The notes under the pieces were generated by a model. It was given only the letters and a program-made list of their open reading frames with translations, had not been told where the DNA came from and searched no databases. Of a stretch of 11,532 bases of DNA, positions 1 to 11,532 are shown piece after piece. A program made the translations under genes and the position numbers. Numbering within the stretch: the stretch's first letter is position 1; each line of letters opens with the position of its first letter. The stretch is from an uncultured Planctomycetaceae bacterium (GTDB lineage: Bacteria > Planctomycetota > Planctomycetia > Pirellulales > Pirellulaceae), in contig CAIYOB010000810.1 of assembly GCA_903927685.1 (NCBI GenBank), forward strand, positions 1 to 11,532. Direction: 5' to 3'.

Positions 1-330
1 ACCGAGAACGGGAAGACGGTCACCATTACCGAGAGCAGTGACTCGGGGATCACCGTCACCGTTACCGAGACGGTCGGCGGGAAAGGGAAGAAGACGGTTG
101 CGAAAGCAGCCAACGCCCAGCAATTGGCACGGAAGAACCCGGCGGCCTTTCGGCTGTACAAGAGCCACATCGACCGCGTCCAAGGCCAGGCGGGCGCGAA
201 TGGTCATGGCAGCCCGGCCGACGCACGCGAGCTGCTTCGTGACCAACTCCGCAAACAGATCCAGGACAACGCAGGCAACCCACAGCTGAGAGCGATGCTC
301 GAGAAGATGCTCAACGAACTCGAAAAATAG
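1..330 (+). CDS. C-terminal part of a lysine-rich hypothetical protein
   Basis: The frame is open from the first base of the window and stops with TAG at 328-330, so the N-terminus lies outside. The visible 109 residues begin with a threonine/valine-rich stretch (TENGKTVTITESS, then GITVTVTETV) that looks like short beta strands. A basic linker follows, and then a helical, charged C-terminal half containing NPAAFRLYKSH and ending NELEK. An internal TTG at 124 could open a shorter frame, but codon use and sequence character continue smoothly upstream of it, so I read one protein cut by the window edge. Similar repeated TVTVTE tails occur, from memory, in secreted planctomycete proteins. No function can be given. 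It converges on the response-regulator gene at 411, with no clear terminator between them. Confidence 0.7.
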   Translation, partial: TENGKTVTITESSDSGITVTVTETVGGKGKKTVAKAANAQQLARKNPAAFRLYKSHIDRVQGQAGANGHGSPADARELLRDQLRKQIQDNAGNPQLRAMLEKMLNELEK

Positions 331-410
331 CTCGCAACCGGGACGCTGCGCGGGGCCGAAATGTCCTGCGGCGAGGATCCTGTCCAGCTTCGCCTTGGAC
401 GGCTGCCGCC

Positions 411-863
411 TCACGCCGGTGGGCGCACAAAACGGAAGACCACTTGCTTCAGATCGCGAAGCGCGATGGGCTTGGCCAAGTACTCGTTGCACCCGGCGTC
501 CAGGCAGCGCTGGCGGCCTTCAGCCGACGCCGAGCCGGTGATGGCGACGATGGGGCCGTCCCAGTCCAGCTGGCGTAATTGCTGGGTGGCCGCCAAACCA
601 TCCAGGACGGGCATCTGGATGTCCATCAGGATCAAGTCATAGGCCCGGCCCGCGGCCGCGGAGCCTTGGGCCAGATCGCAGGCCTGCAGGCCGTTCTCGG
701 CCACGTCGACCTCGAACCCACAGGCAGTCAGCAGCACGCGGAGCAGTCGCTGAACATCGGGCGTATCGTCGACAACCAGCACCCGGCCGAGCGGCCCATG
801 GTCCCCACGGCACCCCGACCGTACGTCTTGCCTTTGAACTGAATGGCAGGCTACCCCCTGCAT
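411..863 (-). CDS. Stand-alone response regulator receiver-domain protein
   Basis: This 150-residue protein is almost entirely a CheY-like receiver domain, the phosphorylated half of a two-component system. The domain starts near residue 26 (GRVLVVDD). The acidic pair is D32/D33, the phospho-acceptor is D81 in LILMDIQMP, the switch threonine is T109 in AITGSA, and the conserved lysine is K131 in YLAKPI. All the catalytic positions are intact, so it should accept phosphate from a histidine kinase. There is no output domain, so it may act by protein contact or within a phosphorelay. The form of the domain (MDIQMPVLDGL, then GCNEYLAKPI) resembles receivers attached to hybrid sensor kinases. The ATG at 863 is preceded by AAGGAG about 10 bases upstream. 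The first 25 residues are not part of the fold, so a later start remains possible. No kinase gene is adjacent, only a PAS relic about 230 bp upstream on the other strand. Confidence 0.85.
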   Translation of the reverse strand: MQGVACHSVQRQDVRSGCRGDHGPLGRVLVVDDTPDVQRLLRVLLTACGFEVDVAENGLQACDLAQGSAAAGRAYDLILMDIQMPVLDGLAATQQLRQLDWDGPIVAITGSASAEGRQRCLDAGCNEYLAKPIALRDLKQVVFRFVRPPA

Positions 864-1091
864 GCTCGTGCATCTCCTTTGCTTGGCGGGCCATCCACAT
901 CGGGGCTCTTCCCGCTTGTGACTTCCGCTCGCCGGTCGGGTAGTTCGTTGGCCAACCTGCGCCGCTCGCCCGGAACAAGTCTATCCCATCCGTGACGAAA
1001 CGGGCAAGCCAGTATTCGCCAGGGACAGGGACGAATTCGAGTTTTTTTTGTCACGGTCTGTCAGAACCAGCCAAGCGGGGGACGCCTGCAC

Positions 1092-1493
1092 AAACATGTC
1101 GACCAGCTCGCCGATGCCGTGGTGGGGCATGACGCCGCCGGGCGAATCCTGGATGCCAAGCCGCACGCCTGCGCCAGCCTCGCCTCCAGCCAGGAGGAAC
1201 TGCTGCGTCTGAAGATTGCCCAAGTGGTAGCGGAACTCACCGGCTCCGAAACGGTCGCCCGGGTTTGGCGTCTGGTGACGGCAGCACGACACCAAGACGC
1301 CTCGCTTGAGCAGTCGTGTCGGGGTGGCCGGCAACTTGGAGCATCAGGAACGGCGGGAGGCCCTTTCCTTTCGCCACGTGGGTGACGGCTGAACAGTCAA
1401 CAGGAAGACGACCACGGCTTGCACCGCGAGGGAATTTGACATCGGGAATCTCCCCGGCGGCGCTTGGAATCAGCCCAACATGACAGCGCATAC
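1092..1493 (+). pseudogene. Frameshifted relic of a PAS sensory domain
   Basis: Two adjacent frames together spell one PAS domain. In the frame of position 1092 the peptide reads LADAVVGHDAAGRILDA, then HACASLASSQEELLRLKIA, up to about [13 protein letters not shown] near 1300. This is the usual PAS core: D-G-R-I-L-D-A, then a helix, then the S-x-E-E-L-L stretch. From about 1337 the next frame continues with [16 protein letters not shown] and [15 protein letters not shown], which corresponds to the closing strands and the usual D-L-T end of PAS domains. The two halves are joined by a frameshift between about 1290 and 1337. There is no kinase domain after it: the second frame stops at about 1493. 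PAS domains sense light, redox state or small ligands, usually in a histidine kinase. This piece is probably the leftover of such a sensor and is unlikely to be expressed as a working protein. Confidence 0.55.
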
Positions 1494-1717
1494 AACCAGC
1501 TCAGAACCGTGTTTAGGGTCCTGCGCAGGGCCGGCGGCCCCATCGGGCGGGCAATCGCCTTCCGGACGAGCGGTCCCAGGGCCCCGACAGCCGGCAAGCC
1601 CCACCGGACCGGCAGGTTGCCCAGGAACATCAGGCCTGTGCCTCTGCCGACTCGGCCTTGCGATACGCGGCCAGTCGCGGAGAGCCGCGTAGAGGACAAC
1701 ACCCGCAGGCGTCCGTC

Positions 1718-2221
1718 TCAGTCGTCGGCTCCCCGCTCAACACCTTCAGCTTCGCCGCTGTTGCCGCGTCGTGCCTCCACACACCGGATGGCTTCTATCG
1801 GCAGTTCATTGCCGTAAATCACCGACAGGACGGCGGGGAGGTACATGTCCAACATCGACATGGTCGTGCCCATCAGCCGGTCGATGACCGCCTCGTCCAG
1901 GTCGTCGTCCGTCAGGATCTGGGCGGCCTGGAAACGCAGTTCGCCCTGGTCAAAATCCAACTCGAACTTGCCGACCCGCAGACCGAAGTTGGCCCGGGCG
2001 ATCGTCTCGGCGAGCGCCGGCCGCGCACCTTCGGGGACGCGCACGGGCGAGTAGCCGAAGACCTGGAACAAGCTCCCTTCGTCATCCACGGCCGCGATGA
2101 CCCGGTACGTGCCGACCGCACAACGAAAGTCGGCGCAGATCGAGCTTCCTGCGCCGTTGGCCAGGTAGCTGACGTCACGTTCATCCAGGTGCTGGATCAG
2201 TTTCTCGTAGGCCGCGTACAT
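1718..2221 (-). CDS. YbjN-domain protein
   Basis: This protein of 167 residues begins MYAAYEKLIQHLDERD and belongs to the YbjN family, which shares a fold with type III secretion chaperones. The family signs seen are a short N-terminal helix, a strand-rich centre (ICADFRCAVGTYRVIAAVDD, then LFQVFGYSPV), a helix ETIARANFGLRVGKFELD, and the C-terminal helical part DEAVIDRLMGTTMSMLDMY. YbjN proteins have no known enzymatic role; in enterobacteria they affect motility and stress traits. The frame is open further up, to a possible ATG at 2362 (MRTLLAALWDLV), but an excellent AAGGGAGG lies six bases before the ATG at 2221, so I use that start. It is the first gene downstream of the tRNA array on the same strand. 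Confidence 0.8.
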   Translation of the reverse strand: MYAAYEKLIQHLDERDVSYLANGAGSSICADFRCAVGTYRVIAAVDDEGSLFQVFGYSPVRVPEGARPALAETIARANFGLRVGKFELDFDQGELRFQAAQILTDDDLDEAVIDRLMGTTMSMLDMYLPAVLSVIYGNELPIEAIRCVEARRGNSGEAEGVERGADD

Positions 2222-2227
2222 GCTTGG

Positions 2228-2235
2228 CCTCCCTT
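2228..2235 (-). promoter_or_regulatory. Ribosome binding site that sets the YbjN start
   Basis: On the minus strand the sequence reads AAGGGAGG, then six bases (CCAAGC), then ATG at 2221. This is a near-perfect Shine-Dalgarno site at ideal spacing, and it decides for the 167-residue reading against the longer open frame upstream. Confidence 0.7.
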
Positions 2236-2479
2236 GCCCAAGTTCCGTCGTTGCCGGCGAATGATCGGTTGCGGCGGTTGCGACGCCGGGCGTCGCCAGG
2301 CCGAGTGCCTCGGCCGGTCTGCCTCGTACCAGGTCCCACAGGGCTGCCAGTAGGGTCCGCATCGTCGCACCGATTCCCATCTCGCTGTTCAGGCATCCCG
2401 CCGAGGAATCGAAAGAGCGTCCTGCAGAATCGAAATCTGCCGTGCCGGCCACCACACTCGCAGGGCAAATTGCCGCCAG

Positions 2480-2551
2480 TATCCCGACCTGGACTCGAAC
2501 CAGGGTCTGGACCTTCGGAGGGTCCCATGTAATCCGCTACACCATCGGGAC
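2480..2551 (-). tRNA. tRNA-Arg(CCG)
   Basis: It folds cleanly. The acceptor GTCCCGA pairs with TCGGGAT, and the D stem GTGT pairs with ACAT. The anticodon stem GGACC/GGTCC carries loop CTCCGAA with U33 and anticodon CCG, which reads the arginine codon CGG. The T arm CCTGG TTCGAGT CCAGG is perfect, and position 73 is A. The variable loop is only three bases (AGA), one or two shorter than usual. No CCA is encoded. It is the last tRNA of the array in the direction of transcription. Confidence 0.82.
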
Positions 2552-2564
2552 GTCTTCACCGCAG

Positions 2565-2638
2565 AGCCGACGACTGGATTCGCACCAGCATGAATCCGCT
2601 TACAAGACGGATGCCTTTCTACCTCGAGCCACGTCGGC
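2565..2638 (-). tRNA. tRNA-Thr(TGT)
   Basis: The acceptor GCCGACG/CGTCGGC is perfect, with U73. The anticodon stem TCCGT/GCGGA (one G-U pair) carries loop CTTGTAA, anticodon TGT, reading ACA. The T arm GCTGG TGCGAAT CCAGT has an altered T loop, with G in place of the second T of TTCGAAT. The D arm (GCTC to AGGC) has only three pairs. The body resembles ordinary bacterial tRNA-Thr (GCCGAC to GTCGGC, CTTGTAA), so identity is clear, but the D and T arms are drifting. No CCA is encoded. It lies 40 bp downstream of the HNH gene. Confidence 0.75.
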
Positions 2639-2678
2639 ATCAACGCTCCCGGCCCGCAGACCGGGAGCGAAATCGCTC

Positions 2679-3275
2679 CTACTTCTCAAGCGCGACGTTC
2701 CAGTACGTCTCGCTCACGAACTTCGACCAGCTTTCGATCCGTTGGTCGTGGGCCGCGTACCGCGGGTTCCACGTCGGCTGGACCGGTGGGTGCTTCAGCC
2801 GCATCTGGGCCTGCTCCGGCGTGCGGTCGGCCTTGCGCTTGTTGCACGCCGTGCAAGCCAGCACGCAGTTATCCCACCGCGACTGGCCGCCCTGGGCACG
2901 CGGGATGACGTGGTCGAGCGTCAACTCGTCCATGCCCGGCTGCGCACCGCAGTACTGGCAGGTGTAGTGATCCCGCTTGAAAATGTTCCTCCGGCTGAAC
3001 GTCACGGCCGCCGCAGGCAGCCGGTCGTAACCGGTCAGCGTGATCACCTCCGGCACGCGCATGCGAAACCGAACCGCCTGAATGAACCGATCGCCGTCCT
3101 TGGGACGCAGCCTCGACCAGTCCTCCCAGGTGTAGGTCTGGTAGTCGGCCGGATCCACGACCCGCGCGGATGCGTTCCACAGCAGCACCAGCGCGCGAGC
3201 CACGGGGGCCACGTTCACTGGCTGCCAGTTGCGGTTCAGGATCAGCGTCGGTCTGTTTAGGATCTTGGATACCAC
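2679..3275 (-). CDS. HNH endonuclease within the tRNA array
   Basis: This 198-residue protein has a complete HNH nuclease domain in its C-terminal half. Zinc-binding pairs are C106/C109 (CQYC) and C141/C144 (CTAC). The catalytic strand is LTLDHVIPRAQGG, with D121 and H122; N136 and N145 complete the motif. The N-terminal 100 residues, starting VSKILNRPTLILNRNWQPV, form the extra domain common to a widespread family of small HNH proteins. The start is GTG at 3275, with GAGG seven bases upstream. It lies 24 bp after the 3' end of tRNA-His and 40 bp before tRNA-Thr, all on one strand, so it is very likely part of the array transcript. HNH enzymes of this size cut DNA as free-standing homing, phage or restriction-type nucleases; the natural target here is unknown. 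All key residues are intact, although tRNA genes around it are decaying. Confidence 0.9.
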   Translation of the reverse strand: MVSKILNRPTLILNRNWQPVNVAPVARALVLLWNASARVVDPADYQTYTWEDWSRLRPKDGDRFIQAVRFRMRVPEVITLTGYDRLPAAAVTFSRRNIFKRDHYTCQYCGAQPGMDELTLDHVIPRAQGGQSRWDNCVLACTACNKRKADRTPEQAQMRLKHPPVQPTWNPRYAAHDQRIESWSKFVSETYWNVALEK

Positions 3276-3299
3276 GGCTGCACCTCAAGTTGTGAAAGG

Positions 3300-3373
3300 G
3301 GTGACCGAAGGGAGTTGAACCCTTACCTCCTGCTTCACAGGCCGGCATGCCTACCGCATACACCACGGACACC
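3300..3373 (-). tRNA. tRNA-His(GTG)
   Basis: Loop CTGTGAA gives anticodon GTG with U33. The gene keeps the histidine hallmark: an extra G at position -1 (3373) faces C73 (3300), the pair recognised by histidyl-tRNA synthetase. The T arm AAGGG TTCAACT CCCTT is perfect. Two defects are visible: acceptor pair 4:69 is T-T (GTGTCCG against CGGTCAC), and anticodon-stem pair 29:41 is G-A (CCGGC against GCAGG). The D stem GTGT/GCAT has wobble pairs. The G-1:C73 pair suggests it is or recently was charged. No CCA is encoded. It lies just before the HNH gene. Confidence 0.75.
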
Positions 3374-3386
3374 ATGTTGATTTCCG

Positions 3387-3467
3387 CGGAAGGGGTGGGA
3401 ATCGAACCCGCAAGGCTTTCGCTCCGCCGGCTTCCAACCTTTCCATCGCCGATCGGGTCGCCCTTCC
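3387..3467 (-). tRNA. Damaged class II tRNA, probably Ser(GGA)
   Basis: The acceptor GGAAGGG/CCCTTCC is perfect with G73, as in serine tRNAs. The T arm GCGGG TTCGATT CCCAC has one mismatch. A short variable arm closes on a GAAA tetraloop (AGCGAAAGCC), a common serine/leucine trait. The loop TTGGAAG would give anticodon GGA with U33, but its stem (AAAGG against CCGGC) has only two of five pairs, and the D arm has two or three. At 81 bases it is short for class II. It is probably non-functional or highly divergent, and the identity is tentative. Confidence 0.5.
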
Positions 3468-3482
3468 GTTGTTTGTCTTCAG

Positions 3483-3554
3483 CAGCCCGACCAGGACTCG
3501 AACCCGGAACACCTCGGTAGAAACGAGGGATGATCTCCGTTTCACCATCGGGCC
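3483..3554 (-). tRNA. tRNA-Arg(TCT)
   Basis: It has a good cloverleaf. The acceptor GGCCCGA/TCGGGCT has one G-U pair. The D stem GTGA/TCAT is intact. The anticodon stem CCTCG/CGAGG carries loop TTTCTAC, anticodon TCT, reading AGA. The T arm is CCGGG TTCGAGT CCTGG, with one G-U pair. Position 73 is G and no CCA is encoded. Its acceptor and D arm resemble those of the Arg(CCG) gene at the other end of the array. Confidence 0.82.
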
Positions 3555-3561
3555 AGCAAGG

Positions 3562-3647
3562 CGGAAGGCAAGGGAGTCGAACCCTCAGGACCCGCAGGTC
3601 TCCCGGTTTAGCAAACCGGCCCGGCAAGCCGTATCCGGCTACCTTCC
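3562..3647 (-). tRNA. tRNA-Ser(GCT)
   Basis: This is a well-formed class II tRNA of 86 bases. The acceptor GGAAGGT/GCCTTCC pairs fully (one G-U), with G73. The D stem is CCGG/CCGG. The anticodon stem CCGGT/ACCGG carries loop TTGCTAA, anticodon GCT, reading AGC and AGT. The long variable arm folds on GACC/GGTC. The T arm is GAGGG TTCGACT CCCTT. No CCA is encoded. It is among the best-preserved tRNAs of the array, and its 3' region resembles that of the Gly-like gene at 3994. Confidence 0.87.
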
Positions 3648-3655
3648 GTTCTTTT

Positions 3656-3731
3656 CAGTGGACCCACCCAGGCGTGAACTCGGGCACCGACGCGCAGCGT
3701 TGGTCGCTCCGCCACGCCAGGGCGGCGTCTT
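3656..3731 (-). pseudogene. Unresolved tRNA-like stretch, possibly an Ala relic
   Basis: The spacing between Trp and Ser(GCT) leaves room for one tRNA, but no cloverleaf closes. Pieces can be recognised. CCGCC CTGGCGT GGCGG (3725 down to 3709) is a perfect five-pair, seven-base anticodon-type arm with U33 and anticodon GGC (Ala). CCGAG TTCACGC CTGGG (around 3670) looks like a T arm with one mismatch and no A58. No acceptor stem joins them. Half of the stretch is one copy of the 26-bp inverted repeat. A six-pair hairpin (CCTTGG, AAA, CCAAGG) fills 3734-3748, next to the Trp 3' end. Confidence 0.25.
3680..3705 (-). repeat. 26-bp inverted repeat, copy 1
   Basis: The minus strand here is identical over 26 bases to the plus strand at 3847-3872; it starts GACCAACGCTGCG and ends GGTGCCCGA. 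The two copies face each other about 140 bp apart and enclose tRNA-Trp. Identity stops sharply at both edges. Confidence 0.85.
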
Positions 3732-3748
3732 CCCCTTGGAAACCAAGG

Positions 3749-3820
3749 CACGCCCCCAAGGACTTGAACCCTGACCAACTGGGTTGGAACCAGCCGTGCT
3801 GCCAATTACACCAGGGACGC
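3749..3820 (-). tRNA. tRNA-Trp(CCA)
   Basis: The acceptor GCGTCCC/GGGGCGT pairs throughout with wobbles, with G73. The D stem is GTGT/GCAC. The anticodon stem GCTGG/CCAGT carries loop TTCCAAC with U33 and anticodon CCA, reading TGG. The T arm is CAGGG TTCAAGT CCTTG. No CCA tail is encoded. The D-arm wording (TGGTGTAATTGGCAGCACG) is more like bacterial tRNA-Gln than tRNA-Trp, so this may be a Gln-type body with a tryptophan anticodon. Confidence 0.75.
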
Positions 3821-3846
3821 GTGTTGTGTCTTCTCGCAGCGGAAGA

Positions 3847-3872
3847 GACCAACGCTGCGCGTCGGTGCCCGA
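3847..3872 (+). repeat. 26-bp inverted repeat, copy 2
   Basis: This is the plus-strand copy of the sequence read on the minus strand at 3680-3705. Its inner edge (GTGCCCGA) overlaps the 3' end of the tRNA-like fragment at 3863-3909, so the repeat boundary falls inside a former tRNA gene. Confidence 0.85.
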
Positions 3873-3909
3873 CTCGAACCCACAAACCCGGAATACTTCT
3901 TGGACACCG
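3863..3909 (-). pseudogene. tRNA 3'-half fragment
   Basis: Only the 3' part of a tRNA can be seen. GGGTTTGTGGG TTCGAGT is the usual variable loop, T stem and T loop, but the T stem 3' side is missing: after the loop the sequence goes straight to C-GGGCACC. No D or anticodon arm is present. Within the fragment CGGTGTC can pair with GGCACCG, closing a 47-base acceptor-plus-T-arm hairpin. The 3' GGGCAC also matches the GTGCCC at the 5' end of the next fragment (3922-3981), hinting that the two were halves of one gene. Confidence 0.35.
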
Positions 3910-3921
3910 CAGGTGCGAAAA

Positions 3922-3981
3922 GGCTCGGGGAGAGGGAATCGAACCGGAAGGCTGGTGCCTGAGCCGATCGGCCAAGGGCAC
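3922..3981 (-). pseudogene. tRNA mosaic lacking most of the anticodon arm
   Basis: The 5' end reads like a tRNA: GTGCCCT, TG, then the D arm GCC GATCGGCTCA GGC, A26 and CCAGC. It then jumps into a T loop (CCGG TTCGATT CCCTC) and a 3' end CCCCGAGCC. The loop-like CTTCCGG after CCAGC could hold a TCC anticodon, but the 3' anticodon stem is absent. The 5' GTGCCCT cannot pair with the 3' end; an internal GGCTCAG pairs with CCGAGCC (six of seven). The piece looks like two tRNA genes joined by a deletion. Confidence 0.4.
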
Positions 3982-3993
3982 GTGTCGTCAAGG

Positions 3994-4064
3994 CGGAAGG
4001 AGCGGGAGTCGAGCCGGCACTTCCGTCATGGCAAGGCAGCAGGCTACCGCTGCATCATGGACGC
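3994..4064 (-). tRNA. Gly(GCC)-type tRNA with foreign 3' end
   Basis: The first two thirds resemble bacterial tRNA-Gly: GCGTCCA, TG, ATGCAGCGGTAGCCTG, then CTGCC TTGCCAT GACGG with U33, anticodon GCC and one stem mismatch. The 3' part does not match: the acceptor 3' side is TCCTTCC, which cannot pair with GCGTCCA. The T arm GCCGG CTCGACT CCCGC has a mismatch and C54. Its flank and acceptor (AAGGCGGAAGG on the plus strand) equal those of tRNA-Ser(GCT) at 3562. It appears to be a Gly/Ser recombinant and is unlikely to be charged normally. Confidence 0.5.
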
Positions 4065-4105
4065 TTGGTTGGAAGCCGAATTGTCAAAGATCAAAGTTCG
4101 CTCAG

Positions 4106-4177
4106 AGCACCGGGAGGGACTTGAACCCTCGTCGCCGCATGACGGGTGCGGTGTCCTTGCCGCTGGACGACCAGTGC
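4106..4177 (-). tRNA. tRNA with anticodon CGT in a Glu/Asp-like body and C33
   Basis: All four stems pair: acceptor GCACTGG/CCGGTGC (one G-U), D stem GTCC/GGAC, anticodon stem CCGCA/TGCGG, T arm GAGGG TTCAAGT CCCTC. Position 73 is T. The anticodon loop is CCCGTCA. Positions 34-36 then read CGT (threonine, ACG), but position 33 is C where U is nearly universal, and position 37 is C where a purine is expected. The body (TCGTCCAGCGGCAAGGACACCGC) is close to tRNA-Glu. If the loop slipped by one base the anticodon would be GTC (Asp). Structure is certain, decoding is not. Confidence 0.65.
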
Positions 4178-4188
4178 GTTCATTCCGG

Positions 4189-4259
4189 AGGGCCGGTGGG
4201 AATCGAACCCTCCTCTCCGGCTCGTCAGACCGGCGCTACACCGTCTCCGCTACCAGCCC
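4189..4259 (-). tRNA. tRNA-Val(GAC)
   Basis: The acceptor GGGCTGG/CCGGCCC has one G-U pair. The anticodon stem CCGGT/GCCGG carries loop CTGACGA with U33 and anticodon GAC, reading GTC and GTT. The T arm GAGGG TTCGATT CCCA has lost one base on its 3' side, leaving three or four pairs. The D arm pairs poorly, and position 73 is T. No CCA is encoded. It is the first tRNA of the array in the direction of transcription, 5 bases from the T-run of the upstream terminator. Confidence 0.65.
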
Positions 4260-4264
4260 AAACA

Positions 4265-4296
4265 GAAAAAGCCCGGCGTCTTGGTGACACCGGGCT
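4265..4296 (-). terminator. Intrinsic terminator or attenuator ahead of the tRNA array
   Basis: On the minus strand AGCCCGG pairs with CCGGGCT, with an inner GTC/GAC pairing, followed at once by TTTTTC. This is a classic Rho-independent terminator. It stands directly before the first tRNA, so either it ends transcripts coming from the yaiI side, with the array having its own start, or it attenuates a promoter further upstream. Confidence 0.75.
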
Positions 4297-4756
4297 CTTC
4301 GTGTCGTCCCGTCGACTTGTAGGCCGCGTGTCACAACCGCCAATGGCGCAGGGGGAACGTATTGGCCGGATGACCGGCAAAACACGCCGCGCCTTTCTGT
4401 TCGCGATTGTAACTCGACCACAAGACCATCATTCTCCGCGACTCCGACAAAGGGCGGCTCCCAAGCCGCCGGTGATCAACTGCGTGCCACTGTTAAGAAG
4501 GACGAGAACCGCTTCCGAAGGTTCGCAAGAAAGTCTCGCACACACGCTGCCGGATAAGACGCTCGAAGCAGCCGTTTTATTCTCAGCAGCTGAGAAAATG
4601 TCCGCGACACGGATTTAGCAGGAGCGATCCCTTGGGGACAGACCTCTTGGAGCTTGGCGGCGTAATCCGTGACCTGCATGACGGGAGGCAGCACCACCTG
4701 ACTCGCGGCTCCGCCTTGTATTCGGGGATTGGGTGATTGCATCCGATCAACCGTGC
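4297..4756. other. 460-bp gap without a recognisable gene
   Basis: Between the terminator and the yaiI-type gene I see no convincing coding region. A minus-strand frame at 4476-4760 would need a TTG start and has no family features. The gap holds a 17-bp dyad at 4580-4596, a GGGGACAGACC motif near 4634-4644, and perhaps the array promoter. On the minus strand TTGGCG, 16 bases, TACAAG (about 4318-4345) is a weak candidate. Confidence 0.5.
4580..4596. repeat. Short perfect dyad, operator-like
   Basis: TTCTCAGC and GCTGAGAA are exact inverted copies separated by a single A, with AT-rich flanks (TTTTA before, AATG after). The one-base centre cannot form a hairpin loop without opening the stem, so a protein-binding site is more likely than a terminator. 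No regulator gene is nearby. Confidence 0.45.
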
Positions 4757-5206
4757 TCAACCCTTCGCCGCCGTCAACCAGCGATCAAGCTGATTGGCGA
4801 ACGCTTGCCGGTCTTGGGCGCTGAAGTTGGCCGGTCCTCCTGTGATCTGGCCTCCCCCGCGCAGCTCGTCAAGAAGATTGCGCATGGCCAACCGCTCGCC
4901 GACGTTAGCTTCCGTGTACAATTCGCCTCGCGGATTGAGGGCCTGCCCGCCCTTGGCAACCACCTGAGCCGCCAAAGGGATGTCCGCCGTGATTACGAGG
5001 TCACCCGGCTGGACAAGTTCGACGATGCGTCGGTCGGCGACGTTCATGCCTGCGGGGACCAACAAGCTGTCGACGAACTCGGAACGGGGCGTACGCAGGG
5101 CTTGATTGGCGATCAGCGTTACCTTGGTCTTCGTCCGCCTTGCAGCCCGAAACAGCAGTTCCTTGACCTCGCCCGGACAGGCGTCCGCGTCGACCCAGAT
5201 TTTCAT
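4757..5206 (-). CDS. yaiI: YaiI/YqxD family protein (UPF0178, DUF188)
   Basis: This protein of 149 residues has the usual length for the family. The N-terminus [19 protein letters not shown] carries the defining V-D-A-D-A-C-P motif. NQALRTP, the D-x-x-I-V centre ([23 protein letters not shown]), the NPRGELYT block and the helical C-terminus with RNLLDELR and FANQLDRWL all follow in order. The family has a PIN-like fold, and the conserved aspartates suggest metal binding and possibly RNA cleavage, but no substrate is established. The ATG at 5206 has GGGGA about eight bases upstream. It lies 181 bp after the YdjY gene on the same strand; the gap has no clear terminator, so the two may share a transcript. 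The hairpin at 4265-4296 may end it. Confidence 0.9.
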
Positions 5207-5387
5207 GTTGCACGTCCCCGATCACGAGTCAGAGCGGCAGCCCGGTGGATCGGTCCACAGGTCCCAGGTGAAGCTGCGGGTCGCCCAGTCGGCGGCGAGC
5301 TGTTCGCGACAGCCGATTCTACGGCCCCACGATTCCTTGGGCTGGCAGCCCATCAAGGTACGAACAAGGTGCCTCGGCGCGCCTCTG

Positions 5388-6200
5388 TCATGGCACGGGC
5401 GATTGTGCCGATTCCCCGGGCGGGTCGCGCTTGACCTCGCCGCGCTTCTCCACTTGCGGGATCAGCACCAGGCGGACCTTGGTGCCCAGCGGCGGGATGC
5501 GGTCCGTCCAGGCGGTGAACATCAGGCTTTCGTTGGATTGGCTGCTGGCCACGGGCAGGTCGAGCATCGCGGTCGGGAAATTGGAGACGCAGATCAAATC
5601 GCCTCCGTCGGCCTGGTAGTATCGCTTGCCCGTGGTCTCGTCCGTCCAGACGGAGCTGCCGGCGAAGACCCACGACTGGCTCATCGCCTTGTCCGCCTTC
5701 AGTTCCTTGATCCACTCCTGAGCCCGGACGCGGTGCTTGCTGCCCGCGGCGTCTTTCCACAAGACATGGATTTCGACGACAGGGCCGGTGGCCGCCCGAT
5801 AGGTCGGGTCAAAGCTGACCGGCTTTCCCGGCTCGGCGCCCACCGCCACGAGGGCGGCGTGGACGAACTGGGCGGTGCAGTTGACCGAGACGATCGATTC
5901 GTGCTCCTTGCTGCCCTTCGGACAGGCGAACATCTCCAGCAGACCTTCCCGCAGGCAGACCTGGCCGTCCACGATCACCCATTTGCGTTTGGGGTCGATC
6001 CACAGCTCGTAGTCCTTCGTCATCCGCACGATCCCGGTCGCCTCGTCCTTGGCGTCGGCGTCCGCAGCCGCATCCGCCGGCGGCGTTTCGGGCTTGGCCG
6101 CTTCCGCGGAGCCCGACGGTTCGGCGGCCCTGGCCAGACAAGCCGACCAGACGCTCAGCCCCAGGACGATCGCGGCCGGTAATCGCTGAAGGTGGAACAT
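5388..6200 (-). CDS. Secreted YdjY-domain protein
   Basis: The 270 residues begin with a signal peptide: basic start MFHLQR, hydrophobic core to about residue 22, likely cleavage after ARA near 25. An alanine- and aspartate-rich linker runs to about 55. The YdjY domain then fills residues 63-248. Its signatures are LWIDPKRKWVIVDGQVCLR, the ACPKGSKEHESIV block (92-104), HRVRAQEWI, the GKRYYQADGGDLICVSNF block (191-208) with PTAMLDLPV after it, and IPPLGTKVRLVLIP. The function of YdjY domains is unknown; in planctomycetes they occur as stand-alone exported proteins and are common. The H-E pair and the cysteines in ACPKG and LICVSN could bind a metal or cofactor, which is inference only. The ATG at 6200 has AAGGAG nine bases upstream. 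It is divergent from the gene at 6350. Confidence 0.88.
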   Translation of the reverse strand: MFHLQRLPAAIVLGLSVWSACLARAAEPSGSAEAAKPETPPADAAADADAKDEATGIVRMTKDYELWIDPKRKWVIVDGQVCLREGLLEMFACPKGSKEHESIVSVNCTAQFVHAALVAVGAEPGKPVSFDPTYRAATGPVVEIHVLWKDAAGSKHRVRAQEWIKELKADKAMSQSWVFAGSSVWTDETTGKRYYQADGGDLICVSNFPTAMLDLPVASSQSNESLMFTAWTDRIPPLGTKVRLVLIPQVEKRGEVKRDPPGESAQSPVP

Positions 6201-6349
6201 GGAATGGATCTCCTTGCCGTGGCAGTTTGCAGCCCCATCGGATAATCACGCCGGCCCCCTGACAAGCCGCCGTGTTTCGCGTATCGTGATGCGTACTTTG
6301 GGTACTCGCGAATCCCGGCACCATTATAGGCCCCGAGGCGTTGGCCGCC
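6201..6349. promoter_or_regulatory. Divergent intergenic region
   Basis: The gap separates two genes facing outward and must hold both starts. Candidates are weak: on the plus strand TTGGGT, 18-19 bases, CATTAT/ATTATA (about 6298-6328); on the minus strand TTGTCA (6260-6265) with TATCCG about 15 bases on. Neither is strong. Confidence 0.3.
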
Positions 6350-8113
6350 ATGCCCGTAACGACGCGTACGAACAAGTCTTTGACTCGCAGCCTTGGCCCC
6401 CAGCGCTGGGACGAGTGGGTGACGCACCTGGCCAGCCGCGCCGGTCCGCTGCCTCCCTGGGCCAGAATCTCGGCCGGTCGCCGCTGTCCGTTGTCCTGGT
6501 CCCTCGCGCCGCCGGCTCCATCCGAGTCCGGCCGCGGGCTGCTGCGACGGATGGAGCGTTGGCTGCGGGCGGAGCGGTTGCCGGCGGCGGAGATTGCGCG
6601 AGCTGTCGAGCCGTGGCTCAGTTCCGCCGAGCGCCGGGCGACCGATATGGAGTTCGCCTTGGAGTGCCTGGGCTGGAGCTACCTGCTGCCCAGGCTGGCC
6701 AAGGTTCTGCCGGCGGCGCCGTGGTGCGAGGTCTGGGACGGATTGATCGCGCTGGCGGCGGAGCCGGACGCCGCTCCGCCGACGTGGGACTCCCCCTTGG
6801 TTCGGCAGCTGCTGGCCGGCGAGCTGGCCTGGACGCTGGCCGACCAGTTCCCGGAATTGGCGCGCTGCCGAGCGTTAGGCCGCATGGCTCGCCGACGCCT
6901 GAGCGCGGGAGTCCGCGAGTTGCTGGCGGACAGCGGGCTGCCGCACTGCCAGCACGTCGAGCTGGTCCGGCCGCTGCTGGCGTGCTGGACGCGTTGCCGG
7001 AAATTGGTGCGCGCGGACGGAACGATATGCTTCGATCGCGAAGCCGCGCGGCGTTACGAACGGTTCGTGCGGCAGGCCTTGCAGCTGTCGCGTCAAGATG
7101 GCGGCCGGGTGTTCAGTGCCAACGGCAGCGGCCCGCATGATGTCGAGTTGCTGGACACCGCCTTGGAATTGGCCGGTCGGGACGAGGATCTGGCGGTGGC
7201 CGGCCAGTTGCTGCCGTGGCGTGCAGCGGGCGGCGAGGCCGGCGCCGAACCGGACCAGTTGCCCAGTTCGTCCGTGTACTCCGAAGCGGCCCAGTTGGCC
7301 AGTCTGCGGCCCAGTTGGCACCGCGGCAGCATGCATCTGGTGGTCGGCCATCACGAGGGCGCCGTGCGCACGGAGTTGAACCTGGGTTCAACGACCGTCT
7401 GGTCCGGGAATTGGCTGGTTCAGCTGCGCGTCGGCAACACGTTGCTGGAGCCCCGGGCCTGGGAGGAGGTCTGCTGGCACTCGGATGACGACGTGGACTA
7501 CCTGGAACTGGAGACCAACTGGCCCGGCTCCTGGAAACTGCAGCGTCAGATCCTGCTGGCTCGCGAGGAGCACTTCCTGTGGCTCGCGGACGCGGTCACG
7601 GGGCCGGAAACCGAAACGCTGGACTATCGCAGCGTGTTGCCGCTGGCGCCTGGCATCGAGTTCCGAGGGGAAACGGAAACATGCGAGGGAGAATTGCGGA
7701 ACCGCCGACGGCTGGCCCGGGTGTTGCCGGTGGCCATTCCGGAATGGCGTCTCGCGGCCGCGACGGGCGGCCTGGAGGCTGGGCCCGGCGGCCTGCAACT
7801 CCGGCAGCGGACGCAAGCGCGCGGCCTGTACGCGCCGTTGTTCCTCGATCTCAGCCCGCACCGCCAGAAGTGGCCGCTGACCTGGCGGCAACTGACCGTG
7901 GCGGAGAAGCTGCAGATCCAAAGTCCCGACGTCGCCGTGGGCTACCGCGTCCAGGTCGGCGGCGACCAGTGGCTGTTCTACCGCTCGCTGACCGATCTGG
8001 CCAGCCGCACGCTGCTGGGACAGAACATCCGGCACGAGTTTTATGCGGCACGGTTCGACACCGAAGGCGAAGCCGACGAACTGCTGGCCCTCGATCCTGC
8101 CGGGACGTCGTGA
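6350..8113 (+). CDS. Large conserved-type protein with heparinase II/III-like outline
   Basis: This is a 587-residue protein from ATG 6350 (MPVTTRTNKSLTRSLG). A TTG nine bases earlier is in frame, but it sits right against the GAGG site, so ATG is preferred. Residues 1 to about 320 are helix-rich with many W, R and L residues (LLRRMERWLRAERL, WTLADQFPELARCRAL, HVELVRPLLACWTRC). From about 328 the sequence becomes strand-rich: MHLVVGHHEGAVRTELNLGS, NWLVQLRVGNTLLEP, DYLELETNWPGSWKLQRQI and so on to the end. A helical toroid followed by a beta-sandwich is the layout of heparinase II/III and alginate lyases, and GHHEGA sits where those enzymes carry their histidine motif. I cannot identify the catalytic residues, and there is no signal peptide, so enzymatic activity is unproven. 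It may be a planctomycete-specific family. It is followed directly by a palindromic terminator candidate. Confidence 0.75.
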   Translation: MPVTTRTNKSLTRSLGPQRWDEWVTHLASRAGPLPPWARISAGRRCPLSWSLAPPAPSESGRGLLRRMERWLRAERLPAAEIARAVEPWLSSAERRATDMEFALECLGWSYLLPRLAKVLPAAPWCEVWDGLIALAAEPDAAPPTWDSPLVRQLLAGELAWTLADQFPELARCRALGRMARRRLSAGVRELLADSGLPHCQHVELVRPLLACWTRCRKLVRADGTICFDREAARRYERFVRQALQLSRQDGGRVFSANGSGPHDVELLDTALELAGRDEDLAVAGQLLPWRAAGGEAGAEPDQLPSSSVYSEAAQLASLRPSWHRGSMHLVVGHHEGAVRTELNLGSTTVWSGNWLVQLRVGNTLLEPRAWEEVCWHSDDDVDYLELETNWPGSWKLQRQILLAREEHFLWLADAVTGPETETLDYRSVLPLAPGIEFRGETETCEGELRNRRRLARVLPVAIPEWRLAAATGGLEAGPGGLQLRQRTQARGLYAPLFLDLSPHRQKWPLTWRQLTVAEKLQIQSPDVAVGYRVQVGGDQWLFYRSLTDLASRTLLGQNIRHEFYAARFDTEGEADELLALDPAGTS

Positions 8114-8136
8114 ACAGGGCTGCCGGCAGCCCTGTT
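8113..8136 (+). terminator. Perfect 24-bp palindrome at the stop codon, likely terminator
   Basis: AACAGGGCTGCC is followed at once by its exact reverse complement. The hairpin would have a ten-pair stem closing a CCGG loop, and starts on the last base of the TGA. The tract after it is only GTTTCGCC, so termination may be partial. It could work in both directions. Confidence 0.55.
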
Positions 8137-8168
8137 TCGCCGGCCCGGCAACTTGTCGTGTGGGCTGG

Positions 8169-8196
8169 TTGACAGGACGGTGCCGTCAAGGACAAT
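8169..8196 (+). promoter_or_regulatory. Promoter of the efflux operon
   Basis: A perfect TTGACA (8169-8174) is followed after 16 bases by GACAAT (8191-8196), four of six matches to the -10 consensus. It lies about 110 bp ahead of the adaptor start and just after the palindromic terminator, a sensible place for the operon promoter. Planctomycete housekeeping promoters are not always of this type. Confidence 0.5.
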
Positions 8197-8308
8197 AGGT
8201 CCCGTCGCGGCCGACCCGAGCTGCGCGAGACAGGGTTTCCGCAAATCCCGCTGCGACTGGTTGCCTCACGCCTGCCCACTGACCGGCCCCACCTACCGGG
8301 AGATCCGC

Positions 8309-9574
8309 ATGAGTCCGTTGAGCCACGACGTCGTGCTGCGAGTTGGCTGGGTGTTCGTCTGGCTGATGCCCGTGTGCGCCGCCCTGGCGGGTTGCCAGGC
8401 GAACGCCTCGCCGCACCGCACCGAATCGGAAGCCACGACGGCTGCGGCGGGCGTGCCTGCCGAGGTCGAGGTCGTGGCGGTCGAGTCGCGGCCGTGGCCG
8501 CGGGAGGTGCGCGTCCAGGGCAGCCTGTTGGCGGACGAACATGCGGTGATCGGCACGAAGGTCGCCGGCCGCGTTCAGCAGGTCCACGTCGATCTGGGCT
8601 CGATCGTGGCGGCGGGCGACGTCCTGGCCACGTTGGAAACCGAGGAGTTTGATCTCGAAGTCCGCGCGGCCGAGTCGCAACTGGAACAAGTACGGGTCAG
8701 GCTCGGCCTGAAGCCGGACGACAAGGAAGAAAAACTCGATCCCACGCAGGCCCCGACGGTCGTGCAGGAAGCCGCCCTGCGAAACCAGGCCCGGGCCAAC
8801 CTGCAACGCGCCCAGTCGCTGGCGCCGAATCACATCATTACGGCGGAAGAACTGGACCAGTGCCAGGCGGAACTGGAAGTCGCCGAAGCCCGCTACCGTT
8901 CGGCCCTGAATTCCGTCGCCGAGACCATCGCCTCGATCGGCCTCCGCCGGGCGGAACTCGAACTGGCCCAACAGGCGCGGCTGGACGCCGAGATTCGCGC
9001 CCCGTTTGCCGGTTGCATCCAGCAGCGTTTTGTAGCGCCCGGGACGTATGTGCAAATCAGCCAGCCGATCGCCACGCTCGTGCGGACGAACCCCTTGCGG
9101 TTTCGCGCCGGTGTCCCCGAGCGGCAGGCGGCCCCGTTGGAGGTCAAGCAAGCCGCGCGGGTGCATGTCGAGGGGCTGGCGGCACCTTTGCAGGGAACCG
9201 TATCGCGAATCAGCCCGGCCCTGGATCTGTCGAATCGGACGCTGACCGTGGAAATCGACGTGCCCAATCCCGACTCGCGGTTGCGGGCTGGGGTGTTCGC
9301 CGAAGCGGCAGTCATCGTGGACACCGAGGCGCGGGCCCTGGCAATTCCCCACGATACGCTGAAGGATTTTGCCGGTGTCGAAAAGGCCTGGATCGTGCTG
9401 GACGGCAACGCCGCCGAACGCGTCCTGACCACCGGCCGCCGGGACGGCGATTGGGTCGAGGTCCTGACCGGGCTGGCCGCTGGCGACAATATCGTCCGGC
9501 AGCCGCCGGAGGGCCTGGCCGGTCCAGTCCGGGTGCGGCCACCCCACGCGGTGGCGGCGACGGAACAGCTGTAG
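8309..9574 (+). CDS. RND efflux periplasmic adaptor (HlyD/AcrA type) lipoprotein
   Basis: This 421-residue adaptor bridges an inner-membrane RND pump and an outer-membrane channel. It begins with a lipoprotein signal: a hydrophobic segment at residues 10-28 ends in LAGC, so C29 should be lipidated. The first half-lipoyl motif (VAGRVQQVHVDLGSIVAAGDVLATLE) follows near 85-110. A long helical hairpin rich in E, Q, A and R spans about 115-225, then the second half-lipoyl motif (DAEIRAPFAGCIQQ, FVAPGTYV). The beta-barrel comes next (LVRTNPLRFRAGVPE) and the closing stretch LRAGVFAEAAVIV to IPHDTLK. The ATG at 8309 has GGGAG about six bases upstream. An upstream GTG at 8153 is in frame but would spoil the signal peptide. 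The permease gene follows after 144 bp holding a palindromic element. Confidence 0.93.
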   Translation: MSPLSHDVVLRVGWVFVWLMPVCAALAGCQANASPHRTESEATTAAAGVPAEVEVVAVESRPWPREVRVQGSLLADEHAVIGTKVAGRVQQVHVDLGSIVAAGDVLATLETEEFDLEVRAAESQLEQVRVRLGLKPDDKEEKLDPTQAPTVVQEAALRNQARANLQRAQSLAPNHIITAEELDQCQAELEVAEARYRSALNSVAETIASIGLRRAELELAQQARLDAEIRAPFAGCIQQRFVAPGTYVQISQPIATLVRTNPLRFRAGVPERQAAPLEVKQAARVHVEGLAAPLQGTVSRISPALDLSNRTLTVEIDVPNPDSRLRAGVFAEAAVIVDTEARALAIPHDTLKDFAGVEKAWIVLDGNAAERVLTTGRRDGDWVEVLTGLAAGDNIVRQPPEGLAGPVRVRPPHAVAATEQL

Positions 9575-9592
9575 CGAAAGTCGAGAGTAGCC

Positions 9593-9684
9593 TCGTTCGA
9601 GAAATCAGTGTCCGATTGTCGCCTTTCGCTCCGCGAAAGGACGTTCTTTCGCGGAGCGAAAGACGACACTTGTTTCTCGAACGA
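9593..9684. repeat. Nested palindromic element between adaptor and permease
   Basis: The outer arms TCGTTCGAGAAA and TTTCTCGAACGA are exact inverted copies. Further in, AGTGTC faces GACACT. The core is CTTTCGCTCCGCGAAAG (9623-9639) and its reverse complement (9646-9662), six bases apart; each core copy is itself a seven-pair hairpin around TCC or GGA. The left arm carries about ten extra bases (CGATTGTCGC region). The whole can fold as one long hairpin or as two small ones. It has the form of a REP- or MITE-like element without coding capacity. Confidence 0.8.
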
Positions 9685-9705
9685 TGCTCGAGTTCAATCC
9701 CCGAC

Positions 9706-9710
9706 GGAGG
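9706..9710 (+). promoter_or_regulatory. Ribosome binding site that sets the permease GTG start
   Basis: GGAGG lies eight bases before the GTG at 9719. The nearby ATG at 9724 is in another frame and does not give the RND protein. The site lies just outside the palindromic element, which could therefore mask or free it. Confidence 0.7.
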
Positions 9711-9718
9711 ACACCGAA

Positions 9719-11532
9719 GTGCAATGGCTGGCTGAAATCTGCATCCGCCGACCGGTGTTTGCCGTGATGCTGATCCTGGCCCTGGTGGTGGCCGGCATCG
9801 CCGCCTATCTGCGGCTGGGCGTCGACCGGTTTCCCCAGATGGATATGCCGACCGTCTACGTCTCGACCGTGTATCCCAACGCCGCGGCGGAAGAAGTCGA
9901 GTCGGAAGTCACGCAGCTGATGGAGGACTCGGTCGCGACGGTGGGCGGCATCGACGAATTGCGGTCGATCAGCCGCGAAGGGGCCTCGTTGCTGTTGCTG
10001 ACCTTCCGCGTGGACCGGGACATCGATGCGGCGACCCAGGACGTCCGCGACGCCGTCAACGCGGTGCTGAACCGCCTGCCGCCGACCGCGTATCCGCCCG
10101 TGGTTCGCAAGCAGGACTTGGAAGCGTCCCCGATCCTGACGCTCGCCCTGTCGGGCGACCGGCAGCCGCGCGAGCTGTTCGTGCTCGCCGACCGCTACGT
10201 CAAGGACTTGATCGAATCGGCCCCGGGGGTCGGCCAGGTGGGCATCTACGGCGCCCAGGACCGCGCCGTACGGATCGACGTCGAGGCGGCCCGGTTGGCG
10301 GCGTACCGGCTGTCCATCCTCCAGGTCCGCGACGCGCTGGTGCGTCAGAACGCGGACATCCCTGGCGGACGCGTCGATACCGGGGCCCGCGAACTGGGCC
10401 TGCGCACGTTGGGTCGGTTTCGCGAGCCGCGCGATTTCCTGGAGATGGTCATCGCCACGCCCGGTGGGACACCCGTCCGGCTCCGGGATCTGGGCACCGC
10501 AGTGGACGCGACCAAGGAGGTCCGCAATCTCGCTCGGCTGAACGGAAAGCCGGCGGTCGTGCTGAGCGTGCAGCGGCAGTCCGGCGAAAACACGGTGGAC
10601 GTCATCCAGGCGGTCAAGGAACGCCTGAAGCGGAGCCAACAAATCCTGCCTCCGGATGTGCGTGTCGAAGTCATCCAGGACCAGTCGCGGTACATCCTGG
10701 CCGCGATGCACGAGATCCAGAAGCACCTGATCGTAGGCAGCGTGTTGGCGACGCTCGTGGTCTTGATCTTCATGCGGTCGTGGCGTTCGACCATCATCGC
10801 CGCCGTGGCGATTCCCACGTCCCTGATCGCGACCTTTGCCATGATGCGGGCGCTGAACTTTACGCTCAACAACATGACCATGCTGGCCATGGTGCTGATG
10901 GTCGGGATCGTGATCGACGATGCGATTGTGGTGCTGGAGAACGTCTTTCACTGCATTGAGGAAAAAGGGATGCCGCCCATGCGTGCGGCCGTCGTGGGCA
11001 CGAAGGAGATCGGCCTGGCCGTGCTGGTCACGACCCTGTCGCTGGTGATCGTATTCCTGCCGCTGGCGTTCCTGTCCAGCCTGGCCGGCCGGATGCTGTT
11101 CCAGTTCGGCATGACGGCCACGGTCTCGATCCTGGTCTCGCTGCTGGTCAGTTTCACGCTCACGCCGATGATGTGCTCGCGGTTGCTCCAGCCGGCCCGG
11201 GCCACCGAGGGCGGGCCGGCCTCGCGCCGCGGCTTTTATCACGGGATCGAAGTCGGCTATCTGGCCGTGCTCCGCTGGTCGCTGCGCTGGCGCTGGGCCG
11301 TGCTGCTGCTGTCGCTGGCGGCGATCGCGACCAACTGGCCGCTGTACCATCTGGTCAAGCAGGATTACATCCCGACCAACGTGGATGAATCGGAGTTCGA
11401 GGTCGAGGTGGTGGCCCGTGAAGGAACTTCGCTGAGTTCCATGGACCAGCTGGCGCGGGCGGTCGAAGCGGAGTTGCAGACGCTGCCCGGCGTCAAACTG
11501 TTGCTGACCAACCTCGGCTCGGGCGGCCTCCC
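9719..11532 (+). CDS. RND-family efflux permease, N-terminal part
   Basis: The frame from GTG 9719 stays open to the window end (604 complete residues of a family usually over 1000 long). It encodes the inner-membrane pump that drives drugs, metals or lipophilic compounds outward using protons. The start (MQWLAEICIRRPVFAVMLIL) has the typical cytoplasmic helix with RRPVFA and the first membrane segment at about 13-32. The porter domain follows, with FPQMDMPTVYVSTVYPNAA, GIDELRSISREG and APGVGQVGIYGAQ. Membrane segments resume near residue 335. The proton-relay aspartates are D400 and D401 in GIVIDDAIVVLENV. Two more segments and the TPMMCSRLL end of the first membrane bundle follow, then the second periplasmic half begins. 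All visible key residues are intact. With the adaptor upstream it forms an operon; the outer-membrane channel is not in view. Confidence 0.95.
   Translation, partial: MQWLAEICIRRPVFAVMLILALVVAGIAAYLRLGVDRFPQMDMPTVYVSTVYPNAAAEEVESEVTQLMEDSVATVGGIDELRSISREGASLLLLTFRVDRDIDAATQDVRDAVNAVLNRLPPTAYPPVVRKQDLEASPILTLALSGDRQPRELFVLADRYVKDLIESAPGVGQVGIYGAQDRAVRIDVEAARLAAYRLSILQVRDALVRQNADIPGGRVDTGARELGLRTLGRFREPRDFLEMVIATPGGTPVRLRDLGTAVDATKEVRNLARLNGKPAVVLSVQRQSGENTVDVIQAVKERLKRSQQILPPDVRVEVIQDQSRYILAAMHEIQKHLIVGSVLATLVVLIFMRSWRSTIIAAVAIPTSLIATFAMMRALNFTLNNMTMLAMVLMVGIVIDDAIVVLENVFHCIEEKGMPPMRAAVVGTKEIGLAVLVTTLSLVIVFLPLAFLSSLAGRMLFQFGMTATVSILVSLLVSFTLTPMMCSRLLQPARATEGGPASRRGFYHGIEVGYLAVLRWSLRWRWAVLLLSLAAIATNWPLYHLVKQDYIPTNVDESEFEVEVVAREGTSLSSMDQLARAVEAELQTLPGVKLLLTNLGSGGL

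Follow-up and report, generated by a model that had tools for sequence, protein, structure and literature searches.

A probable eroded copy of a planctomycete tRNA gene island that has kept its HNH endonuclease gene

What is an intact nuclease gene doing in a row of tRNA genes of which several are visibly broken? The question is raised by a contig of an uncultured Planctomycetaceae bacterium (CAIYOB010000810.1 of assembly GCA_903927685.1; its positions 1 to 11,532, i.e., the whole stretch of 11,532 nucleotides analysed, are called the window below). A sequence-only reading of this DNA had noticed about thirteen tRNA genes or tRNA-like pieces on one strand at 2480..4259 with an HNH endonuclease gene between His and Thr, and had proposed an accessory cassette that might supply replacement tRNAs or act as a recombination platform, with HNH as a candidate mobility or defence component. 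The analysis that followed makes it quite probable that the locus is an eroded copy of an island present in planctomycetes, that intact islands serve as a tRNA reserve, that the HNH gene promotes its own copying and that the reserve in the window no longer works as a whole.

Inspection of the tRNA content confirms the array and its uneven quality. ARAGORN calls eight tRNAs on the minus strand at 2479-4260, namely Val(gac), Thr(cgt), Trp, Ser(gct), Arg(tct), His, Thr(tgt) and Arg(ccg). It makes no call elsewhere in the window or in any of 200 dinucleotide shuffles of the array stretch. Seven of the eight reach the Rfam tRNA cut-off, and the eighth, Ser(gct), matches tRNA-Sec below the cut-off. 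Five further tRNA-like pieces between the called genes are left uncalled by ARAGORN and are recognisable against related loci; scored with 20 shuffles per piece against 530 tRNAs of related loci, all 13 excised pieces exceed their shuffled maximum, the weakest (3834-3917) with 48 against 28, and all 13 match planctomycete array tRNAs. With 8 called genes and 13-14 pieces the window falls short of the at least 20 tRNAs of a tRNA array unit, a number well exceeded by its closest relative found, locus L001 (titled Rhodopirellula sp.), with 40. The HNH gene between His and Thr is likewise as first described: it is intact, gives a Pfam HNH match, lies within the array and carries the motif residues that are invariant in 10 aligned relatives.

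The case for erosion is founded on the comparison with L001, which has its HNH gene at the same place and continues after the array with a slipin gene, a YbjN-like gene, a Y RNA and a Ro60/TROVE gene. The alignment of the two loci consists of nine collinear blocks and eight gaps. In five of the gaps both ends lie inside or at most 2 bases from tRNA genes (Phe/Lys, Gly/Ser, Gly/Gln, Gln/Ser and Arg/Arg), one has a single end in a tRNA, and two have neither. Present in L001 and missing from the window are most tRNAs, slipin, Arg(gcg), Cys, the Y RNA region and most of TROVE. The 12 assigned pieces of the window's 13 keep the tRNA order of L001; with the Arg(tcg) relic included, the 13 lineage-assigned tRNAs share a longest common subsequence (LCS) of 13 with L001, as against a shuffled maximum of 9. 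Since the L001 order is common to distant islands, tRNAs appear to have been lost in the window rather than gained in L001; for the upstream gap and for slipin, change in either direction is possible. The upstream flank also aligns, and therefore the two arrays probably occupy the same chromosomal place. The features of the window are as follows.

1502..1674, minus strand: TROVE/Ro60 gene relic in two frames (tblastn with the L001 protein, E 2e-12; DNA block)
1718..2221, minus strand: intact YbjN-like gene of the island (Pfam YbjN, E 2.6e-11; 90% identical to L001)
2392-2467, minus strand: tRNA-Arg(tcg) relic, outside the range first noted (alignment to L001 7969-8044)
2479..2551, minus strand: tRNA-Arg(ccg) (ARAGORN; Arg.cct or Arg.ccg lineage of the full array, ambiguous)
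2564..2638, minus strand: tRNA-Thr(tgt) (ARAGORN and match to related-locus tRNAs)
2679..3275, minus strand: intact HNH endonuclease gene, 198 amino acids, GTG start (Pfam HNH, E 1.8e-15)
3298..3372, minus strand: tRNA-His(gtg) (ARAGORN; flanks HNH as in relatives)
3384..3474, minus strand: degenerate tRNA-Ser(gga) (score 112 to L001 Ser.gga, shuffled maximum 29; uncalled by ARAGORN)
3482..3554, minus strand: tRNA-Arg(tct) (ARAGORN and match to related-locus tRNAs)
3560..3647, minus strand: tRNA-Ser(gct) (ARAGORN and match to related-locus tRNAs)
3655..3744, minus strand: broken tRNA-Ala(ggc) relic, at a gap edge relative to L001
3747..3820, minus strand: tRNA-Trp(cca) (ARAGORN and match to related-locus tRNAs)
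3834..3917, minus strand: weak relic, at the edge of the Gln.ctg / Ser.tga gap
3918..3992, minus strand: fused relic, front of Gly(tcc) and end of Gln(ttg) (alignment to relatives)
3995..4090, minus strand: fused relic, front of Gly(gcc) and end of Ser(cga) (alignment to relatives)
4105..4177, minus strand: tRNA-Thr(cgt) (ARAGORN and match to related-locus tRNAs)
4187..4260, minus strand: altered Phe tRNA, called Val(gac), at a gap edge in Lys.ctt of L001
4203..4680, minus strand: upstream flank alignable to L001 (blocks 4203-4582, including the Phe front, and 4625-4680)

The valine identity first given to the piece at 4187-4260 is misleading, as 55 of its 57 aligned front bases are those of the L001 tRNA-Phe, with one change in the anticodon; after the T loop it departs from Phe and has a different 3' end. 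Nor can the missing CCA serve as a mark of mobility: it is true that none is encoded, but this is not peculiar to the array, given that 0 of 29 dispersed tRNAs read in the genome of L001 encode it. The proposal of a recombination platform proves apt at least as a description of the mode of decay, because five of the eight gaps have both ends at tRNA genes.

Against this decay, the HNH and YbjN-like genes are by all signs intact and constrained, with a dN/dS of 0.14-0.25 for HNH (window versus 8 relatives; 88% identical to that of L001) and of 0.11 for the YbjN-like gene (window versus L001). The TROVE relic amounts to 57 residues spread over two frames, so that the window, unlike L001 and others, holds no Ro60-Y RNA locus proper. 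The search of the window for a Y RNA relic or tRNA-like element gave nothing beyond 12-base matches at E 0.32, and no match to RtcB, nor any Rfam match to GOLLD or another known large RNA, was found there.

To what does such an array belong? A scan with the HNH protein across 84,980 species genomes returned 249 loci, the best 80 of which underlie the counts for HNH loci given here. By ARAGORN, at least eight same-strand tRNAs lie near HNH in 22 of the 80, one to seven in 12 and none in 46. Thus, the expectation that the same HNH family would be found beside tRNA arrays in related planctomycetes was borne out. Among the 22 arrays, 19 have His as the last tRNA called ahead of HNH, and 21 have Trp, Thr or Arg as the first one behind it. 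All 17 planctomycete-type arrays chosen by hand, two of them on viral-labelled contigs, resemble the L001 order beyond any of 300 shuffles. Shared ancestry by tRNA order with other arrays was considered and rejected: none of the 13 tested, from Nostoc, mycobacterial and actinobacterial plasmids, a Tunturiibacter phage and viral contigs, exceeds the shuffled maximum. Because the 17 surpass their shuffles and the 13 do not, the planctomycete array is, on tRNA order, one lineage, and the same HNH family occurs at several other array lineages. The two planctomycete-type arrays on viral-labelled contigs are L165, with slipin, and L166, with TROVE; L166 has two ParB-like genes, and none of four scanned proteins of L165 is clearly phage-structural. 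One assembly (PLA7) contains two array loci with closely related HNH genes (L002 and L005), the second with fewer tRNAs. At other loci, YbjN matches scoring 45-57 bits were disregarded as apparent read-through of Arg tRNA sequence.

Judging by the relatives, the evidence supports an accessory rather than a housekeeping array, in keeping with the first description. Six array-bearing genomes hold 66-85 tRNA matches each. In that of L001, 29 dispersed tRNAs with 24 anticodons were read from 26 fetched stretches (L123, within the array contig itself, was left out), and 21 anticodons are common to array and dispersed set. The copies sharing them are 0.52-0.72 identical (mean 0.61), whereas the L001 array and nine other planctomycete arrays have mean identities of 0.74-0.86. 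Further, loci with and without arrays are intermingled across the HNH tree, where the starred branches force at least four changes for the array-less state; the tree was made by a quick method with 34 of 77 inner branches drawn open, which renders loss counts rough. One array-less group aligned with L035, where a His tRNA persists, so poorly in the flank upstream of HNH that no relic could be recognised.

The HNH family extends well beyond these islands. The window HNH has 7,742 protein matches at E 0.001 or better, and members occur at or among arrays of unrelated order in Nostoc, Mycobacterium and viral contigs. Around 80 kept viral HNH loci there are 6.72 tRNAs per 10 kb, as compared with 0.07 at dUTPase control loci and 1.67 at RtcB loci, and at least eight tRNAs are present in 19/80, 0/80 and 6/60 of these, respectively. 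In this comparison the average dUTPase locus is shorter, and the HNH set includes near-copies. Conversely, planctomycete HNH genes also persist where no tRNAs are near, some groups of them sharing non-tRNA neighbours, and in the array L153 His and Trp are adjacent with no HNH between them. As both HNH-less arrays and array-less HNH loci exist, neither needs the other; the pattern fits a homing-type gene that would travel with arrays and later sometimes be kept for itself. Membership in a known defence system was considered and set aside, only domain-level matches (PtuB, Cas9 and others) having been obtained. On two large viral contigs (L184 and L227), 33-35 tRNAs are accompanied by the HNH relative and, at the stretch's upstream edge, by a TROVE match. 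In the Tunturiibacter phage Tunturi_5 (L091 4332-10438), an HNH relative occurs with 15 ARAGORN tRNA calls, an RtcB-type tRNA splicing ligase and an S6 modification enzyme, a gene group that recalls the Anabaena stress regulon described below.

The ends of the islands offer functional leads. TROVE or slipin lies downstream in 16 of the 22 HNH loci with at least eight tRNAs, in 3 of the 12 with one to seven and in none of the 46 without (TROVE counts include two partial matches, L006 and L009); the Fisher value of 5e-11 for this association is not a strict probability, as the loci are related. The TROVE protein matches Pfam TROVE and the Ro60 vWA domain, its best solved match being the Ro sixty-related protein 2nvo, and the slipin protein matches Pfam Band_7. 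Within the order, 21 of 146 genomes have a TROVE match, with at least eight same-strand tRNAs upstream in eight and five tRNAs in one (G003 is the same locus as L018 and was not refetched). In 11 of 16 TROVE loci scanned, Rfam YrlA is matched upstream of TROVE, behind the last tRNA where one is present; at L159 it is matched between TROVE and an RtcB relative, which brings the loci with a Y RNA to 12 of 16. In the alignment of 12 Y RNA copies from ten loci, 15 of 29 pairs change on both sides, which supports the predicted Y RNA as real and as bearing a tRNA-like module. RtcB relatives, 24-36% identical to the phage query protein, accompany TROVE in four of the 20 TROVE loci fetched (L159, L160, L161 and L162), and three of these genomes (L161, L162 and G110) have an array at the place. 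The order at L159 is TROVE, two Y RNAs and the RtcB relative, and G110 (L160 together with L248) unites on one strand, within about 12 kb, TROVE, an RtcB relative, 30 tRNAs, a tRNA-like RNA and slipin. In five array-less TROVE loci (L146, L147, L148, L150 and L156) a single Gln(ttg)-like tRNA remains, some 400-450 bases ahead of TROVE and, in L147, near a Y RNA match.

The second type of ending combines slipin with a tRNA-like RNA. Slipin of the L019 type is present in 32 of the 146 genomes, and 20 of these places were fetched and 12 left out. In all 20, with or without an array, a tRNA-like element lies upstream of the slipin match, at a distance of 469-575 bases (1260 and 1694 in two); at least eight tRNAs are found in nine of the 20 and HNH in five of these nine. 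Together with eight L019-type slipin loci of the HNH scan, of which two are duplicates, this yields 26 distinct copies.

L019 7921-8032; L255 1602-1713; L261 8829-8940, upstream of slipin: examples of the tRNA-like RNA (23 more copies)

Its conserved parts are the D arm, the anticodon stem and the T arm, the anticodon loop being hypervariable and the acceptor short (alignment A4, which leaves out L263 and L008). In 22 of the 26 copies a perfect stem of at least 5 pairs starts at most 14 bases past the T arm, with 16 different stem sequences, a count made with no shuffled control. A strict pattern for the RNA finds five places in the 146 genomes, all about 440-540 bases upstream of slipin. As the one copy tested passes Rfam as a tRNA, the element may be an ancient tRNA turned to other use.

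On the basis of this island gene set together with work on Anabaena and Salmonella, a tRNA reserve induced by stress or damage appears the most likely role of the intact islands. The trn operon of Anabaena PCC 7120 is reportedly a long plasmid-borne tRNA array. A single repressor, relieved by translational stress, is reported to control this trn array together with an HNH gene, slipin, rtcB and rimK (PMC10272220); many supernumerary tRNAs, HNH, slipin and rtcB are joined there in one regulon, a gene set resembling that of the planctomycete islands. On two Nostoc plasmids an HNH relative lies just upstream of 24 and 20 tRNAs, whereas the planctomycete HNH lies inside the array; their tRNA order is unrelated to that of L001 (LCS 7 and 6, within shuffles), and the fetched stretches hold no TROVE or slipin match. 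Mycobacterial tRNA array units are described, in the parts consulted, as having one embedded HNH and anticodons redundant with chromosomal tRNAs (PMC5966550, PMC12803027), both as seen for L001; the order of the mycobacterial L089 is within shuffles of L001 (LCS 10, maximum 11), and its HNH lies between Met and Asn. Archaeal tRNA gene clusters share TROVE (a gene in 20 of 29), HNH genes in their context and pseudo-tRNAs, but belong to Archaea, and the excerpted account names no Y RNA or fixed HNH place (PMC6333295). In Salmonella, the RNA repair operon rsr-yrlBA-rtcBA, with Ro60, Y RNAs and rtcBA, answers cut tRNAs, and resembles L159 in joining Ro60/TROVE, Y RNA and RtcB; it differs in that the portion of the report used names no tRNA array (PMC7790460) and in that most planctomycete islands are without an RtcB found. 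Phage tRNAs and RNA ligases are held, in the sources as far as drawn on, to counter tRNA-cutting defences.

A full island comprises about 40 tRNA genes in fixed order, with Phe first and Cys last, and, judged from an unbiased sample, HNH between His and Trp or Thr in about half of the islands; many run into one or two Y RNAs and Ro60/TROVE, into the tRNA-like RNA and slipin, or into both. Under the reserve reading, impaired translation or the cutting of tRNAs would most likely switch it on: the array would replace tRNAs, while Ro60 and the tRNA-mimicking Y RNA, joined in some islands by an RtcB relative, would handle damaged RNA. The HNH enzyme probably cuts array DNA lacking the HNH gene and would thereby help to copy itself and its neighbours. 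In the lineage of the window, losses ending mainly in tRNA genes probably removed most tRNAs, the Y RNA region, most of TROVE and also slipin, if it was ever present there, leaving fused tRNAs behind while HNH and YbjN stayed intact; as a whole, this reserve is probably no longer working.

Several observations weigh against this reading. A clear tRNA relic is seen in only one of the 46 array-less loci (L028), so that array loss at these places relies on the tree, some parts of which have weak support, and the redundancy evidence, including the 21 anticodons of L001's genome, comes from relatives rather than from the window's own genome. The parts also occur apart: besides the 46 HNH loci with no tRNA nearby, an HNH match is missing from 4 of 8 TROVE-centred arrays (L153, L155, L161 and L162) and from 4 of 9 slipin-centred ones (L246, L248, L250 and L253), and 12 of the 21 TROVE genes have 0-1 same-strand tRNAs upstream in the fetched stretch, which spans about 12 kb upstream and about 3 kb downstream, or to the contig end, and misses far-side arrays such as that in G110. 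Four of the 16 TROVE loci scanned (L006, L007, L009 and L065) give no Rfam Y RNA, L006 and L007 having short BLAST matches to other loci's Y RNAs, and scores stay below the Rfam cut-off except at L159. RtcB was not found at most of the planctomycete islands searched. Finally, the loss of slipin in the window is uncertain, because slipin of the L001 type is unseen at most TROVE-type islands.

Among the alternatives, the one with most in its favour, which we regard as a tentative possibility, makes the HNH the driver, a homing endonuclease that inserts into arrays and spreads them, with the tRNAs as passengers. The presence of the family at arrays of unrelated order, its enrichment with tRNAs in viral loci, its constraint while the window array decays and the adjacent His and Trp of L153 would all suit such an element; yet HNH keeps one place in planctomycete arrays and persists array-less in 46 of 80 loci, in part with shared neighbours. 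It is rather unlikely that the window still holds a minimal live array, whose eight callable tRNAs are made and used, for instance in replacing cleaved tRNAs, with the broken pieces as spacers. The eight do still fold in ARAGORN, and a promoter may persist, because a 380-base block that extends upstream from the Phe front shares 83% identity with L001, but one of the eight has a changed anticodon and a different 3' end, five more pieces go uncalled, TROVE is only a relic and no Y RNA match exists in the window. Similarly doubtful is an extension of the reserve reading by which array, Y RNA and slipin-linked tRNA-like RNA would form a single response to tRNA damage: the tRNA-like RNA, a counterpart of the Y RNA as tRNA mimic of Ro60, would act on anticodon nucleases as decoy or sensor, with a loop that changes in step with the attacking enzymes, the array would replace the cut tRNAs, and the window would be an island after the threat or need had gone.

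Two further explanations carry little weight. Misassembly of the metagenome, with repeated tRNA genes joined into false chimeras, could be imagined from the 8 and 15 bases shared at two junctions, but is very improbable given that these stretches are short and that five of the eight junctions have none, that one gap extends into a protein gene, and that the blocks differ from L001 by 3-20%. A divergent housekeeping operon would account for an order conserved across many planctomycetes, but is disfavoured to the point of being extremely improbable by the redundancy of the array (66-85 tRNA matches in each of six genomes, dispersed copies of the same anticodons in that of L001) and by its patchy presence, many HNH loci of relatives having none.

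Bacteria, archaea, plasmids and phages all provide examples of long tRNA arrays. Arrays with HNH and arrays with TROVE are already known elsewhere; the planctomycete lineage, its Y RNA and tRNA-mimic endings and the decay are new as far as the literature search reached, the planctomycete array, the array-end Y RNA and the tRNA-like RNA before slipin being unreported among the top-ranked papers, a finding that does not establish their absence from print. A chromosomal array family of long-conserved order, physically coupled either with Ro60 and Y RNA or with slipin and a tRNA mimic, renders the idea of a tRNA-damage reserve directly testable, and the decaying copy would illustrate how islands can die, by losses between tRNA genes that leave fused tRNAs with false identities and an intact nuclease gene.

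Two minor observations concern the surroundings of the HNH gene and of the array. By eye, a G+C-rich hairpin follows the HNH stop before the next tRNA in the window (2639-2678) as well as in L008, L016, L152 and L154, and could end or attenuate transcription within the array. A YaiI/DUF188 gene lies near the arrays of both the window (4757-5206) and L019 (9686-10150), on different sides.

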